Both the position numbers and the translations under genes were made by a program. Positions 45,993-51,287 of a stretch of 62,872 bases of DNA are shown here, piece after piece; positions within the stretch are counted from its first letter, which is position 1, and every line of letters starts with the position of its first letter. The notes below the pieces were generated by a model. It was not told where the DNA came from, searched no databases, and saw nothing but the letters and a program-made list of their open reading frames with translations. Source of the stretch: Mesorhizobium sp. (lineage in GTDB: Bacteria; Pseudomonadota; Alphaproteobacteria; Rhizobiales; Rhizobiaceae); assembly GCA_022833215.1 (NCBI GenBank), contig JAIPUZ010000076.1, positions 1-62,872 of the forward strand. The letters are read 5' to 3'.

Positions 45993-46223
45993 GCGGTCAT
46001 CTCTGCGCAAGAATCTATCGTAGTCTGGTAATTAAACGACTTTTTATCATGCGCCAGCGGTTTGTCGTTACCCTGCGATATCCGTCCATATCCGGCAAAG
46101 CTTTCCGGGGACACTTCGCCGTTTGCCTTGCTGGTGTGACTGCAAGCACTTACATTGGCGTCATATTTCGATCTGCGTATCTATCGGGCCGTTTGGTCGG
46201 TCCTTCGTCTGCAAGGCTGCATC

Positions 46224-47198
46224 ATGACCGCAAAGCACGCTCCCGTTCTCATTATCGGCTCCGGCCCTGCTGGCTATACCGCTGCCATATATGCGGCGCG
46301 CGCCATGCTGCAGCCGGTTCTGGTCGCGGGTCTGCAGCAGGGCGGGCAGCTTACCATCACCACAGAGGTCGAGAATTATCCGGGTTTTGCCGAACCCGTG
46401 CAGGGCCCGTGGCTCATGGAGCAGATGGCGAAGCAGGCCGAGCATGTCGGTGCGGAAATCGTCCATGACATTATCGTGGAAGTCGATCTCGATGCGCGTC
46501 CCTTCGTTGCGAAGGGAGATTCAGGCACGGTCTACACGGCTGATTCGCTCATCATCGCGACAGGTGCGCAGGCAAAATGGCTGGGCATCCCTTCCGAGCA
46601 GACCTTTATGGGCTTCGGTGTCTCCGCGTGCGCGACATGCGACGGTTTCTTCTACCGCGGCAAGGATGTGGCCGTCGTTGGCGGTGGCAATTCGGCGGTG
46701 GAGGAAGCGCTTTATCTTTCCAATCTGGCCCGTACGGTCACCGTCATCCACCGGCGCAACGATTTCCGCGCCGAGCGCATCTTGCGTGAGCGCCTGCTGG
46801 CCAAGGACAATATCAGGGTGATCTGGGATACGGTGGTGGACGAGATTACGGGTCGTCCGGGGCAGGCGCCGCTTCCGCCCTCCGTCGAGGGGCTCAGGCT
46901 TCGCAATGTGGTGACAGGTGAGGAGAGCCGGCTTCCGATCGACGGCGTCTTCGTCGCCATCGGCCATGCGCCGGCCGTGGAGCTGTTCACGGGCAAGCTG
47001 AAGCAAAAGCCGAACGGCTATCTGTGGACCGAGGCCGATTCCACGCGCACCAACATTCCCGGCGTATTCGCGGCCGGCGATGTAACCGACGATATTTACC
47101 GCCAGGCTGTGACTGCGGCCGGCATGGGATGCATGGCTGCGCTGGAAGCCGAGAAATATCTGGCAGGGGTACAAGCGCACCGGGACGCGGCGGAATAG
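46224..47198 (+). CDS. trxB: Thioredoxin reductase
   Basis: 324 residues, a FAD enzyme that reduces thioredoxin with NADPH. The FAD loop is 'LIIGSGPAGYTAAIYAARA', the redox CxxC is 'SACATCDGFFYRGKDVAVVG' and the second FAD motif 'GVFAAGDVTDDIYRQAV'. The NADPH loop 'GGGNSAVEEALYLSNLA' is intact. ATG 46224 gives the standard N-terminus. The lsrB gene follows in the same direction after 52 bases, as in Sinorhizobium. Confidence 0.96.
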   Translation: MTAKHAPVLIIGSGPAGYTAAIYAARAMLQPVLVAGLQQGGQLTITTEVENYPGFAEPVQGPWLMEQMAKQAEHVGAEIVHDIIVEVDLDARPFVAKGDSGTVYTADSLIIATGAQAKWLGIPSEQTFMGFGVSACATCDGFFYRGKDVAVVGGGNSAVEEALYLSNLARTVTVIHRRNDFRAERILRERLLAKDNIRVIWDTVVDEITGRPGQAPLPPSVEGLRLRNVVTGEESRLPIDGVFVAIGHAPAVELFTGKLKQKPNGYLWTEADSTRTNIPGVFAAGDVTDDIYRQAVTAAGMGCMAALEAEKYLAGVQAHRDAAE

Positions 47199-47250: not shown

Positions 47251-48147
47251 ATGGCGTTGGATTGGGACAAACTCAGGGTCTTTCATGCAGCTGCGCAGGC
47301 CGGCTCGTTCACCCATGCCGCCGAGACGCTGCATCTGTCGCAATCGGCCATCTCACGGCAGGTGAGCGCGCTGGAGCACGATGTCGGCGTGCCGCTGTTC
47401 CACCGCCATGCGCGTGGACTGGTTCTGACCGAGCAAGGGGAGATGTTGTTCCGCACGGCACATGACGTGCTGATGAAGCTCGAATCCATACGCTCGCGCC
47501 TGCTCGAGACCAAGGATCACCCCACCGGCGTGCTCCGCGTCACGACGACTGTGGGGCTCGGCACCGGCTGGCTCACCGACCGGACCAAGGAATTCCTCGA
47601 ACTCTACCCCGAGATCAACCTTCAGCTGGTGTTCACCAATGAGGAGCTGGACCTGACCATGAGGCAGGCGGATTGCGCGGTGCGTTTGCGCCAGCCGCAA
47701 CAACCGGATCTGATCCAGCGCAGGCTGTTCACCGTGCACCTGCACGTCTTCGCCTCGCAAGACTATATCGATCGCCACGGTGTGCCGAAATCGGCCGCTG
47801 ATCTCGATCGCCATCGCATCATCACTTTCGGTGAGCCAGTGCCGACTTATCTGGCGGGCTTGAATGCGCTGGAGACGGTGGGCAGGCCGGATGGCGAAAA
47901 GCGGCCCAGCGTGTTGCAGATCAACGACCTGATGTCGATCCGCAGGGCAGTCAAGCGTGGAGTGGGGATCGCTATGCTGCCGGACTACATGTCCGGCAAG
48001 GATTCCGGCCTTGTGCCGATCCTTGAAGAGCTGGAAGGACCTTCTTTCGATACGTTCTTCGTCTACCCCGAAGCGATGAAGAACCAGGCCAAGCTCAAGG
48101 CTTTTCGCGACTTCATGTTCGCCAAGGCGCGCAACTGGTCTTACTGA
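47251..48147 (+). CDS. lsrB: LysR-family regulator LsrB/VtlR
   Basis: 298 residues. The start 'MALDWDKLRVFHAAAQAGSF' and 'LSQSAISRQVSALEHDVGV' are those of the alphaproteobacterial LsrB (S. meliloti)/VtlR (Brucella, Agrobacterium) group; the C-terminus 'RDFMFAKARNWSY' also fits. LsrB affects symbiosis, LPS and redox balance; VtlR activates the AbcR small RNA and small-protein genes. Only one Cys (in 'ADCAVRLRQPQQ') is present, so any multi-cysteine redox switch seen in other species would be reduced here. GAGGGGAAAC precedes the ATG. Confidence 0.93.
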   Translation: MALDWDKLRVFHAAAQAGSFTHAAETLHLSQSAISRQVSALEHDVGVPLFHRHARGLVLTEQGEMLFRTAHDVLMKLESIRSRLLETKDHPTGVLRVTTTVGLGTGWLTDRTKEFLELYPEINLQLVFTNEELDLTMRQADCAVRLRQPQQPDLIQRRLFTVHLHVFASQDYIDRHGVPKSAADLDRHRIITFGEPVPTYLAGLNALETVGRPDGEKRPSVLQINDLMSIRRAVKRGVGIAMLPDYMSGKDSGLVPILEELEGPSFDTFFVYPEAMKNQAKLKAFRDFMFAKARNWSY

Positions 48148-48357
48148 TCTGCGTCGATTGCGGCTCCCCGCCTGCATTCTCCGTAGTGGCTTGTGCTGCT
48201 GCGTTGTTGCGCCTGTGAAAGCGGCAGAAACGTTCCGGCAGGGTGTTGAAAGCGGCGCTGTCGCAGCCATGCCATTCAGGCGGGCAATCTTCCCCGGTTT
48301 CTGCTCTGATTCTGGCCTTATTGCCTCTTAATGAGCATTGGACCACAGGTCGTGTGT

Positions 48358-48380
48358 TTTTGCATGAGTGCGTTGCAAAA
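48358..48380. promoter_or_regulatory. Palindromic upstream site of the AbcR-like RNA (possible LsrB/VtlR site)
   Basis: A perfect 7-bp dyad TTTTGCA-N9-TGCAAAA is centred near 48369, about 54 bases before the predicted small-RNA start. That is the usual place for a LysR-type activator, and the regulator gene lies next door. Binding is inferred. Confidence 0.5.
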
Positions 48381-48386
48381 TAGATG

Positions 48387-48415
48387 CTTGTTTGTTGGGC
48401 AGGCGTGGCCCATAT
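48387..48415 (+). promoter_or_regulatory. Predicted promoter of the AbcR-like RNA
   Basis: CTTGTT (48387-48392), a 17-base spacer, then CCATAT (48410-48415). This resembles the rhizobial housekeeping consensus CTTGAC-N17-CTATAT and predicts a start near 48423. Confidence 0.55.
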
Positions 48416-48422
48416 TCCAGTC

Positions 48423-48534
48423 ATCTCCTGAGCGCGTTCTCCTCCCATTAGCGCTCACGAGTGTTCCCCTCTGGAGGTTTAGCCTTTTTGGCACTTCCAT
48501 CAAACTCAGCCGGATCTTCTGATCCGGCTTTTTT
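48423..48534 (+). ncRNA. AbcR-type (alpha-r15) trans-acting small RNA
   Basis: About 112 bases from the predicted start to the terminator. It has hairpin 1 with a perfect stem TGAGCGC/GCGCTCA (48429-48435, 48451-48457) whose loop displays CTCCTCCC, a ribosome-site-like target motif. A C/T-rich single-stranded stretch (GTTCCCCTC) follows, then a small GCC-TTTTT-GGC hairpin and a 9-bp terminator AGCCGGATC/GATCCGGCT (48508-48529) with TTTTTT. Location directly after lsrB/vtlR is where abcR genes sit in related species. AbcR RNAs repress many ABC-transporter mRNAs with Hfq. No second tandem copy was seen. Confidence 0.68.
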
Positions 48535-48816
48535 GTTTGCGATTATCTTCCGCCAAGTGCTGTCGCCGAACCAGTCGTTCCCGTTGAGGGCCGGCTGTTT
48601 GAACATTACGCAATTGCCGGTCCTTCTATTCTTCGCAGTGGCGGATTTCCGGGTTTGTGCCTTCAACAGGTGCGGCTGCCAGGTCGGGAAGGCATCTCCT
48701 TCATCATCCGGAAACGAACGGGATCCCGGGAAACGGCAGCTACACAGACGAATGCCGTTTCGTTGCCTGCTTCCCGGACGATCCAAACTGGCTGCAGGAT
48801 GCTCCGGAGACGGTGC

Positions 48817-48852
48817 GTAACGGTCATGTAACCCCTGTAACGTGACCGTAAG
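48817..48852. promoter_or_regulatory. Phased GTAAC direct repeats
   Basis: GTAAC at 48817, 48828 and 48837 and GTAAG at 48848, spaced 11, 9 and 11 bases, so on nearly the same face of the helix. An ACGGTCA/TGACCGT dyad overlaps them. A CGTGAC-N18-CTACAC promoter-like pair (48841-48846, 48865-48870) follows. Such repeats suit a dimeric response regulator; I recall GTAAC-type repeats for rhizobial ChvI but cannot verify it here. Confidence 0.5.
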
Positions 48853-48876
48853 AACGAATCTTCTCTACACAAAACG

Positions 48877-49057
48877 AAGGACGCGGCGGGCTTTCCGGGG
48901 ATGGGGGCATCTTCCGGAAGGCCGGGTCTCAGGCAACAGCCGCGTCCGTCTCGATTTCTGCCGATGCTTATCGGCATACCATGCGGCGGACCTGCCGTTT
49001 CCTCCCCCGGGGACGGTCCGCAACAAACGGCGGCAGCTCAGTCTGCCGCCGTTTGTT
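48877..49057 (+). ncRNA. Candidate structured transcript of unknown type
   Basis: No protein frame fits, but the stretch from the promoter-like boxes to the 15-bp terminator stem has several self-complementary pieces: CTTCCGGAAG (48911-48920), CCGAT-GCTT-ATCGG (48961-48974), and CGGACC/GGTCCG (48987-49020) enclosing a CCTCCCCC-containing loop. A plus-strand terminator without a plus-strand gene suggests a small RNA. This is an inference from structure alone. Confidence 0.35.
49022..49057. terminator. Bidirectional terminator-like hairpin
   Basis: A perfect 15-bp stem AACAAACGGCGGCAG / CTGCCGCCGTTTGTT with a 6-base loop. The GC core is followed on each strand by TTTGTT, so it can stop the EF-G-like gene (minus strand, 27 bases after its stop) and a plus-strand transcript. 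Confidence 0.75.
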
Positions 49058-49083
49058 CAAAGGCAAAAAAAGCCGGCAGATAC

Positions 49084-51138
49084 TCAGGCGGCCTTGCCTG
49101 CCGCGTTCAAGACATCGTCCGCCAATCGCCCTGTCAGCTCGGCCATATGGCTGAAGCCGCTCACATAGCTGGCGACACCGGCCGTCGCCGAGCGAAGTTC
49201 TATGATCAGGTCACCCATTTCGGCCTGGGGCATGGTTGCTTCCACCACGTCCCAGCCGGGCCAGCCTTCCCGGGCATCGTAACCCAGTATCTGCCCGCGC
49301 CGTTGCGGGATGATTGCGATAATGCGTGCTGTCGCATCCGATGGAGTGAAGATTTCAACCTTCATGATCGGCTCCAGCAACACGGGCGAACAGGCGGCCA
49401 TGCCTTCCTTCATCGCCAGACGCGCGGCCATCTGGAATGCCATGTCCGATGAATCGACGGCGTGATAGGAACCGTCGCTGAGGTTGACCGCGATGTCGAC
49501 GACGGGAAAACCCAGAGGACCGCACTTCAGATAATCGCGAATGCCGGTCTCGACCGAGGGGATATATTGCTTCGGGACCACGCCGCCGGTGATCGTGTTC
49601 GTGAACTCGAAACCGGACCCCCGCGGCAATGGTCTGATCTCGATCAGCACATCGCCGAATTGTCCATGTCCGCCCGACTGCTTCTTGTGGCGGCCGCGCT
49701 GCTGCGCTCCCTTGCGAATGGTTTCCCTGTAGGGAACTGCCGGGGCGTGACCCTCGACTGCGATCTGGTTGCGGCCTTCCAGCCTTTTGTGCACCACCCG
49801 CAAATGCATTTCGCCATGGCCGGAGAGCACGGTTTCGGCCGAGTCCTGATTGTGAGAAAGGCTGAGCGAGGGATCTTCTTCGGCCAGGCGCTGTACGGCG
49901 GCGGAAAGCTTCACGTCGTCCTTGCGTTCCTTTGGCCGCAACGCGAAGGCATAGACGGGCGTTGGAGGGATCAGCTCGATCAGGGATGCCCTGCCGCCTT
50001 TGGCGGAGGTCAGAGTCTGGCCTGTCCGGGCATGCTCGAGCTTGCCCAGCGCTACCGTATCGCCGGCGACTGCTTCACTCAGTCTGGACTGATCCTTGCC
50101 GAACATACGATAAAGGCCCGACACCTTGTCGATAGCCCCGCCAGGGAGATAAAGTTCGGCGCCATCCGTCAGCCGGCCAGAAAGCACGCGCGAGACGGAA
50201 AGCTTGCCGCCATGGGATGTGTAGGCGGTCTTCATCACCTGAACCAGCGTTGCGCCTTCGCTCTCGTCAACCCCGAGGCGCCGCCGCGTTGCCTCGACAT
50301 CGGGCGCGTCGTGGCGGATCGCCTTCAGCAGCCGCAGCACACCGTTGCCTTTCTCGGCCGTTCCAATCAGCACCGGTGTCACCTTGCCGTCGCGCAGGTC
50401 GGCGGCGAGATCGTCGAATACAGAGTCGCGAGGTGGCTCGATCTCTTCGAGCAGCTGCTCCATCAACTCGTCATTGTGATCGGCGAGGGTTTCCAGCATG
50501 GAAAAACGCGCCTCGATTTCGCGCGCCTTCTCGTCGCCGGGAATTTCGGCCACTTCGCTTTCGGCATATTCGCGATAGATGTAGGCGCGTTCCAGGGCCA
50601 GGTCGATCGAGCCGATGACGACGCCGTCCTTGCGCAAGGGAATCTGGCGCAGCAGCAATGGCACAGAGCTTGCCGGCTGTAACGTCTTCAGCATCTCGCG
50701 CACGCCGGAATTGGCTTTCTCGACCTTGTTGAGAAACAGGATACGGGGCACGCCGAGTTCATCCAGCCGTCGCATGATGAGCTGGAGCGCCGGTATCTTC
50801 TTCTCGTCAGGCTCGGCAACCACCACCGCAACATCGCAGGCGGCCAGTACCGGCTCGGCTTCGAAGGCGAACTCGATCGAGCCGGGACAGTCGACGAATG
50901 TCAGCCTGTCGCCCATGAAGTCGACGGTGGCGAAGGTTGCCTCCACGCTCATGGCATGTTCGCGCGCTTCGGGGGAATGGTCGGAAACGGTATTGCCCGA
51001 CGCGACAGGATTCTGGCGGGCAATAGCGCCGGTGCGGGCGAGAATGGCTTCGAGAAGTGTCGTCTTGCCGCTTGAGAAGGGACCGACGATGGCAATGCAT
51101 TTCGGTCCCGTGCGTCTTCCTCCGGCGCGATTACCCAT
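49084..51138 (-). CDS. Divergent EF-G-like translational GTPase
   Basis: 684 residues with all EF-G domains recognisable: G domain, domain II, and 'SHNQDSAETVLSGHGEMHLR' of domain III, then domain IV 'QSGGHGQFGDVLIEIRPLPR'. The GTPase motifs are unusual: G1 'GPFSSGKTTL' instead of AHxDAGKTT, G3 'DCPGS' with Ser in place of the catalytic His of DTPGH, and G4 'NKVE' instead of NKxD. So it is not the housekeeping FusA but a second EF-G family member, of unknown role. ATG 51138 has GGAGGT upstream. Homologues occur across rhizobia. Confidence 0.9.
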   Translation of the reverse strand: MGNRAGGRRTGPKCIAIVGPFSSGKTTLLEAILARTGAIARQNPVASGNTVSDHSPEAREHAMSVEATFATVDFMGDRLTFVDCPGSIEFAFEAEPVLAACDVAVVVAEPDEKKIPALQLIMRRLDELGVPRILFLNKVEKANSGVREMLKTLQPASSVPLLLRQIPLRKDGVVIGSIDLALERAYIYREYAESEVAEIPGDEKAREIEARFSMLETLADHNDELMEQLLEEIEPPRDSVFDDLAADLRDGKVTPVLIGTAEKGNGVLRLLKAIRHDAPDVEATRRRLGVDESEGATLVQVMKTAYTSHGGKLSVSRVLSGRLTDGAELYLPGGAIDKVSGLYRMFGKDQSRLSEAVAGDTVALGKLEHARTGQTLTSAKGGRASLIELIPPTPVYAFALRPKERKDDVKLSAAVQRLAEEDPSLSLSHNQDSAETVLSGHGEMHLRVVHKRLEGRNQIAVEGHAPAVPYRETIRKGAQQRGRHKKQSGGHGQFGDVLIEIRPLPRGSGFEFTNTITGGVVPKQYIPSVETGIRDYLKCGPLGFPVVDIAVNLSDGSYHAVDSSDMAFQMAARLAMKEGMAACSPVLLEPIMKVEIFTPSDATARIIAIIPQRRGQILGYDAREGWPGWDVVEATMPQAEMGDLIIELRSATAGVASYVSGFSHMAELTGRLADDVLNAAGKAA

Positions 51139-51287
51139 GGCTGACCTCCGCTCAGGCATTTTTCAGGGGAGCGGCGGCCGGCCTGACGGCCGTCGCACAT
51201 GGCGGACAATGCTGCACTGCCTGCCGTAAGGGTATGGTCACATGGCTTTCGCAGCAGGGCAAGGGGAATAGGTGGGGCATGCATGCC

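Follow-up and report, generated by a model that had tools for sequence, protein, structure and literature searches.

An AbcR1 small RNA gene with a predicted LsrB operator, followed by a second structured RNA candidate, in a Mesorhizobium genome

We analysed a 62,872-nucleotide stretch of a Mesorhizobium sp. genome (contig JAIPUZ010000076.1 of assembly GCA_022833215.1, hereafter the window), in which the gene order is trxB, lsrB, operator, abcR1, a downstream structured RNA candidate and an EF-G-like gene (Table 1). The trxB-lsrB-abcR order of the units activated by LsrB/VtlR is thus present here, and trxB adjoins lsrB in relatives too. The Pfam search for trxB was run on 46218-47198, and the start of the gene was taken from the ORF translation. 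The window LsrB and its counterpart in Aquamicrobium defluvii DSM 11603 are 100% identical, and a 303-base stretch 3' of abcR1 is 94% identical to the record of that strain, which makes the organism A. defluvii or a near relative. A search for LsrB in viral contigs gave no match, and no tandem repeats were reported in 48000-49100. The initial annotation had proposed an AbcR-type small RNA within 48148..48534, adjoining lsrB/vtlR; the Pfam domains agree with the name given to the neighbouring gene and the features within the span are confirmed, although the start at 48148 is merely the base after the lsrB stop.

Table 1. Features of the trxB-lsrB-abcR1 locus and the region downstream (window coordinates)
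Feature	Position	Strand	Basis
trxB-like gene (thioredoxin reductase), directly 5' of lsrB	46224..47198	+	Pfam Pyr_redox_2 (1.1e-52); ORF translation
lsrB/vtlR, LysR-type regulator, 298 aa, lone Cys142	47251..48147	+	Pfam LysR_substrate, HTH_1
LsrB operator (predicted), dyad TTTTGCA-N9-TGCAAAA	48358-48380	+	Sequence, position, conservation
-35 box CTTGTT	48387-48392	+	Sequence; conserved in relatives
-10 box CCATAT, N17 after the -35 box	48410-48415	+	Sequence; conserved in relatives
AbcR1 small RNA (ar15, RF02345)	48423..48535	+	Rfam, folding z, compensated pairs
Anti-Shine-Dalgarno CUCCUCCC (DNA CTCCTCCC), hairpin 1 loop, module M1	48439-48446	+	Sequence, fold, 126-copy check
C/U-rich UUCCCCUCUGGAG, probable module M2	48464-48476	+	TTCCCCTCTG conservation
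AbcR1 intrinsic terminator, hairpin (48508-48529) and T tract	48508..48534	+	ar15 match, compensated pairs, terminator scan
Triple GTAAC element (48817-48821, 48828-48832, 48837-48841), 5' of downstream RNA	48817..48841	+	Pattern, conservation
Second conserved structured RNA (candidate, no Rfam match)	48878..49060	+	Alignment, covariation, Rfam search
3' hairpin of the downstream RNA	49022-49058		
EF-G-like gene	49084-51159	-	ORF list

Judged from its sequence, the RNA gene behind lsrB is AbcR1, a trans-acting small RNA gene of the ar15 family. It matches the ar15 model over its full length (1-112) with 51.9 bits against a cut-off of 40, the sole Rfam match in the window at the curated threshold; this covariance-model search, suggested with the initial annotation, upholds the AbcR-type RNA of about 112 bases described there, the length predicted from the match being 113 nt. 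The fold has a minimum free energy of -44.6 kcal/mol (z -6.1), and none of 200 shuffled sequences folds equally well. Eight of the 26 consensus pairs are compensated, that is, changed on both sides with pairing kept, in 20 non-redundant sequences (window included) drawn from 79 that were gathered by a pattern containing two C-rich motifs. The ar15 family was detected in all 71 genus genomes, in 151 of 198 family genomes and in 29 of 199 order genomes, in surveys whose stricter filters lose weak matches.

Motifs CTCCTCCC and TTCCCCTCTGGAG are invariant in alignment A4, which is uninformative because its sequences were gathered by a pattern holding those motifs. Motif conservation was therefore judged on 126 ar15 copies collected with the covariance model; these comprise 124 copies from 100 stretches of genus and family genomes, the window copy and a second copy from the same genome, and are the best-scoring among the matches listed, weaker and some listed matches being left out. 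The hairpin 1 loop, said in the initial annotation to expose a motif, carries the anti-Shine-Dalgarno sequence UCCUCCC by sequence and fold; CCTCCC is found in 114 of the 126 copies and the full CTCCTCCC in 56. The C/T-rich stretch noted there is the probable module M2, whose TTCCCCTCTG is detected in 124 of the 126. The terminator was also recovered; terminator-like sites number two in the scanned region and 1.5 in shuffles, so the weight of this one comes from the ar15 match and the compensated pairs.

The dyad reported upstream of the RNA is present without mismatch (arms at 48358-48364 and 48374-48380) and spans -65 to -43. Inside it, at 48362-48374 (-61 to -49, counted from the first base of ar15), lies the box GCAT-N3-TG-N3-T, described as the VtlR/LsrB consensus (PMC7486931). 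The LsrB box of the Sinorhizobium meliloti abcR1 promoter occupies the identical position, -61 to -49, and that study describes binding of LsrB to this promoter and AbcR1 as undetectable in the lsrB mutant (PMC8844928). In addition, the reverse complement of the Brucella abortus VtlR motif CAATGCAGCCATGCA (PMC12595884) shares its core with the operator. With up to three mismatches the dyad has two matches in the window, the other one with three mismatches, against 1.78 in shuffles, and the loose dyad by itself is therefore not above chance. Its core TTGCA-N9-TGCAA occurs once without mismatch in the 4.55 Mb assembly, and 68 times with at most one mismatch compared with 31 for the reversed control. 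On the sequence evidence, it is position and conservation that raise the dyad above chance. GCA-N9-TGC starts at -61 (48 copies) or -62 (25 copies) in 73 of the 126 ar15 copies, against a background further upstream of 0.00085 per position.

We then compared 79 AbcR1 promoters in rows of 160 bases, from the window and 78 of 80 named LsrB loci, which are close relatives and non-independent (34 rows remain below 90% identity). GCAT-N3-WG-N3-TGC is found in all 79 and the published box in 59; the dyad is therefore the deeper signal and the fixed T of the box can be A, and by this comparison of sequences the operator is refined to GCAT-N3-WG-N3-TGC. The two named loci left out (L096 and L114) have no RNA-pattern match; L096 has no dyad within 1500 bases, whereas L114 has one. 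The promoter proposed initially, CTTGTT-N17-CCATAT, was read at 48387-48415; a scan with an E. coli-type consensus found no promoter there, but the boxes are conserved among relatives, and the spacing from operator to -35 box is equal in 62 of the 66 rows with a recognised -35 box. The identification of the dyad as the LsrB/VtlR site, offered at first as an inference, is thus supported at the level of sequence by the published consensus and position, the CAATGCAGCCATGCA core, the 79 promoters and a further site at a DUF1127 gene (below).

The initial annotation counted one AbcR RNA, which holds for the window but not for the genome, where a second ar15 copy lies on another contig (G000:C98:22666-22761, 45.1 bits). 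This copy has no LsrB dyad at -70 to -52 and no lsrB beside it. Its promoter, CTTGAA-N16-CCTATCT, differs by one mismatch from CTTGAA-N16-CCTATAT, described as the RpoH1 consensus at AbcR2, and AbcR2 of S. meliloti is described as dependent on RpoH1 (PMC8844928). By analogy, the second AbcR with its sigma-H-like promoter is probably a stress-induced copy. CTTGAA is found at the corresponding place in none of 20 second copies from genus genomes, and the sigma-H reading is therefore not extended to them. Across the 126 copies, GCA-N9-TGC at -70 to -52 is found in 64 of 85 that are linked to lsrB compared with 12 of 41 unlinked ones, linkage being scored by tblastn over the sequence retrieved around each copy (about 1.7 kb upstream); some copies linked at longer range may therefore count as unlinked. 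At least one dyad-bearing copy is present in 57 of 61 lsrB-linked loci: 13 of the 21 linked copies without the dyad share a locus with a dyad-bearing copy, and the remaining eight belong to the four loci without any dyad (L202, L205, L212, L218).

The reading that we favour, with a probability of about 0.93, is that AbcR1 is switched on by LsrB at the dyad and silences transporter and metabolic mRNAs. Most likely, LsrB made from the adjoining upstream gene binds the dyad and, once bound, switches on the CTTGTT/CCATAT promoter. AbcR1 would then pair through CUCCUCCC, and probably also through its second C/U-rich stretch, with ribosome-binding sites, and this pairing would silence the mRNAs. Binding and activation by LsrB, the targets, a part for Hfq and the sigma factor that reads the second promoter are proposed from what is described in relatives; for LsrB, promoter binding and activation are reported from S. 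meliloti and A. tumefaciens. The known systems are alike in many respects. In S. meliloti and Agrobacterium tumefaciens, as here, the AbcR1 gene lies 3' of lsrB and the RNA has three hairpins, the first of them with UCCUCCC in its loop; S. meliloti shares the LsrB box at -61 to -49 combined with a sigma-70-like promoter, and A. tumefaciens the trxB-vtlR-abcR order. The VtlR-abcR2 system of B. abortus and B. melitensis has the same trxB-vtlR-abcR neighbourhood and core motif. Unlike the tandem of AbcR1 and AbcR2 in S. meliloti and A. tumefaciens, the second copy lies on a separate contig here, and both copies carry CUCCUCCC, whereas AbcR2 of A. tumefaciens is described as being without M1 (PMC7486931). 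The AbcR1-LsrB regulatory unit is already in print, and the present locus adds another example. Regarding targets, ABC-transporter parts account for four of the 12 ORFs of at least 60 amino acids behind GGGAGGAG (24 sites) and for three of the 22 distinct ORFs of at least 60 amino acids behind a control Shine-Dalgarno sequence (34 sites, 30 fetched), no clear excess over the control (p 0.18).

What LsrB would sense at this promoter is a separate matter. LsrB of A. tumefaciens is described as redox-responsive, with the cysteine pairs C144/C273 and C236/C244 (PMC11975290). According to the same source, C273S alone gives the H2O2 sensitivity of an lsrB deletion with paraquat and ampicillin unaffected, C144S alone has no effect, and the S. 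meliloti and B. abortus proteins share both C144 and C273 (PMC11975290). VtlR of B. abortus has two cysteines, both of them the conserved ones, whereas the window LsrB has one, the C144 equivalent Cys142; the C273 equivalent (position 271) is Val, so the redox-sensing pair is incomplete and the proposed C144-C273 disulfide is impossible here. Activation of AbcR1 by oxidative stress through the LsrB cysteine pair, as proposed for Agrobacterium, is accordingly improbable in our view. The redox response of the A. tumefaciens protein, the adjacent trxB and the presence of Cys142 in all 81 close LsrBs (80 named and the window) would fit it, but the C273 equivalent is not a cysteine in 64 of these 81, and the C236 and C244 equivalents are cysteine in none. 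In a family-wide set that repeats the window and its genus, 18 of 53 LsrBs are without cysteine at the C273 position. A quick tree of 61 sequences below 95% identity gives at least eight state changes at this position, at least three of them forced by well-supported branches, and all 79 AbcR1 promoters read retain the operator. LsrB may respond by way of Cys142 on its own or by sensing another ligand.

The dyad could also be owned by another regulator, with LsrB a mere neighbour. Exact TGCAT-N3-WG-N3-TGCA sites also stand 5' of genes that by eye resemble pdhA, ahpC and phaR/phbA (L342, L344, L346), and other regulators could own such sites; the one at the phaR/phbA-like gene may, we assume, belong to PhaR. 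We regard this explanation as very unlikely: sequence and position match the box from the Agrobacterium and Sinorhizobium studies, described as supported by gel shifts, the second ar15 copy has neither lsrB beside it nor the dyad, and the genome has another site of this type ahead of a DUF1127 gene. That further site, TGCATTGCTGCCATGCG, is one mismatch from the operator pattern and is followed by two small ORFs in tandem (L350:1502-1516 and 1609-1937), the first of which matches Pfam DUF1127 (1.3e-17) and the second of which is alike by eye. Stretches of CCTCCTCCC occur 3' of these ORFs and are, to our eyes, reminiscent of CcsR RNAs. VtlR of B. melitensis is described as controlling AbcR2 and three DUF1127 small proteins (PMC12595884), a likeness to the LsrB-like site seen here. 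The DUF1127 site is the only one used as evidence from the short-operator genome scan, whose one-mismatch counts (47 and 47, versus 4 and 7 for the reversed control) were not taken as evidence because the reversed control has a different dinucleotide make-up. Finally, the idea that the region is a terminator-like repeat or chance hairpin, whose hairpin and T-run could end lsrB transcription and whose terminator-like sites are no commoner than in shuffles, can be dismissed given the full-length ar15 match, the compensated pairs, the conserved promoter and operator and the presence of both C-rich motifs in most of the 126 model-collected copies.

Downstream of abcR1 we identified a second conserved structured RNA candidate. 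It comprises a closed-stem domain with an invariant GAUG-GGGG-CAUC hairpin, a C-rich loop of the CCUCCC type (CCTCCC in DNA) and a 3' hairpin. Searched against Rfam with E values up to 1, it gave only matches far below the cut-offs (ar14, 19.2 versus 58.8; CcsR1, 15.7 versus 65.3), and no description of it was found in Rfam or in a literature search. Over its length we aligned 25 non-redundant sequences, taken from 55 that a pattern search recovered, the window among them. The consensus structure has 44 pairs and is 97.3% paired, and 14 pairs are changed on both sides compared with 5.3 in shuffles, with none of 500 shuffles as high by any measure; this comparison is biased towards the structure, since the alignment that it was scored on also served to derive it. 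Given the compensated pairs, the segment looks unlikely to be coding. The frequency of G-U pairs suggests the plus strand; the terminator scan reported the 3' hairpin only for the minus strand, and we infer the plus-strand 3' end from the T-rich ends in relatives.

The invariant hairpin GATGGGGGCATC is found in 58 of the 80 named loci, some of which are cut by contig ends, and L114, among the 22 without it, is a hit at E 1e-4 for R1, a model made from the 5' domain; the downstream RNA is therefore common in the group, not general. Searches with R1 gave hits in 19 of the 198 family genomes, spread over 11 of 99 genera, and in five of the 199 order genomes, these five all from the genus of the window. 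Sixteen of 18 copies examined lie 3' of an AbcR motif on the same strand; both exceptions are additional copies carried by a single genome (G189). These extra 5'-domain copies (L283:3001-3074 and L284:3001-3074, on G189:C73) have no GTAAC element and no nearby AbcR motif. A riboswitch was considered and set aside, as the gene that follows runs in the other direction and as G189 has two copies of the domain elsewhere without the element. At another locus (L279:1495-2175), three tandem ar15 copies stand ahead of the downstream RNA.

The triple GTAAC element lies 5' of all 58 downstream RNA copies in the named loci, when the third repeat is scored as TAAC and the spacing is free within limits. 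In a wider-spaced form it occurs once per genome, each time without mismatch, in 24 of 26 genus genomes, and the reversed control has five matches over the 26. By coordinates, 23 of these 24 elements are beside an ar15 copy; the other has no neighbour among the ar15 matches listed. The spacing is shorter in the window, whose genome is one of the two without a match to the wider pattern.

Two un-annotated RNAs of M. huakuii 7653R have a layout compatible with the downstream RNA, a comparison made by layout alone, none of our loci being identified as M. huakuii: MH_s25 lies on the strand opposite its (+)/(+) flanks and was sequenced at 187 and 268 nt, and MH_s39 lies opposite its (-)/(-) flanks with 250 nt (PMC5596092). 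In M. ciceri, similarly, the genes flanking abcR1 and the downstream RNA are both on the opposite strand. The survey of strain 7653R states that AbcR1/2 had not been discovered there (PMC5596092). Since AbcR1 behind an LsrB operator is present in named Mesorhizobium loci, and ar15 in all 71 genus genomes, this gap may be one of detection.

A broader and more tentative reading, to which we give somewhat less than even odds, is that the lsrB-abcR locus has been rewired in Mesorhizobium and Aquamicrobium, through loss of a cysteine, an AbcR2-type copy outside the tandem and a new RNA family after abcR1. The peroxide-linked cysteine has been repeatedly lost with the operator kept, and LsrB would therefore read another signal. 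The AbcR2-type copy would stand outside the tandem, and in many members of the group the new RNA family would follow abcR1 instead. The downstream RNA may be another riboregulator of the anti-Shine-Dalgarno type, controlled by a separate regulator dedicated to it.

Control of nutrient uptake by AbcR RNAs and their activator LsrB/VtlR has been studied in Sinorhizobium, Agrobacterium and Brucella. The refined operator is a motif open to testing, and the repeated loss of the C273 equivalent makes the activation of AbcR1 by LsrB a claim distinct from the one that this activation works by thiol redox sensing. The downstream RNA candidate would represent a tractable RNA family, with a GTAAC promoter element nearly private to that family.
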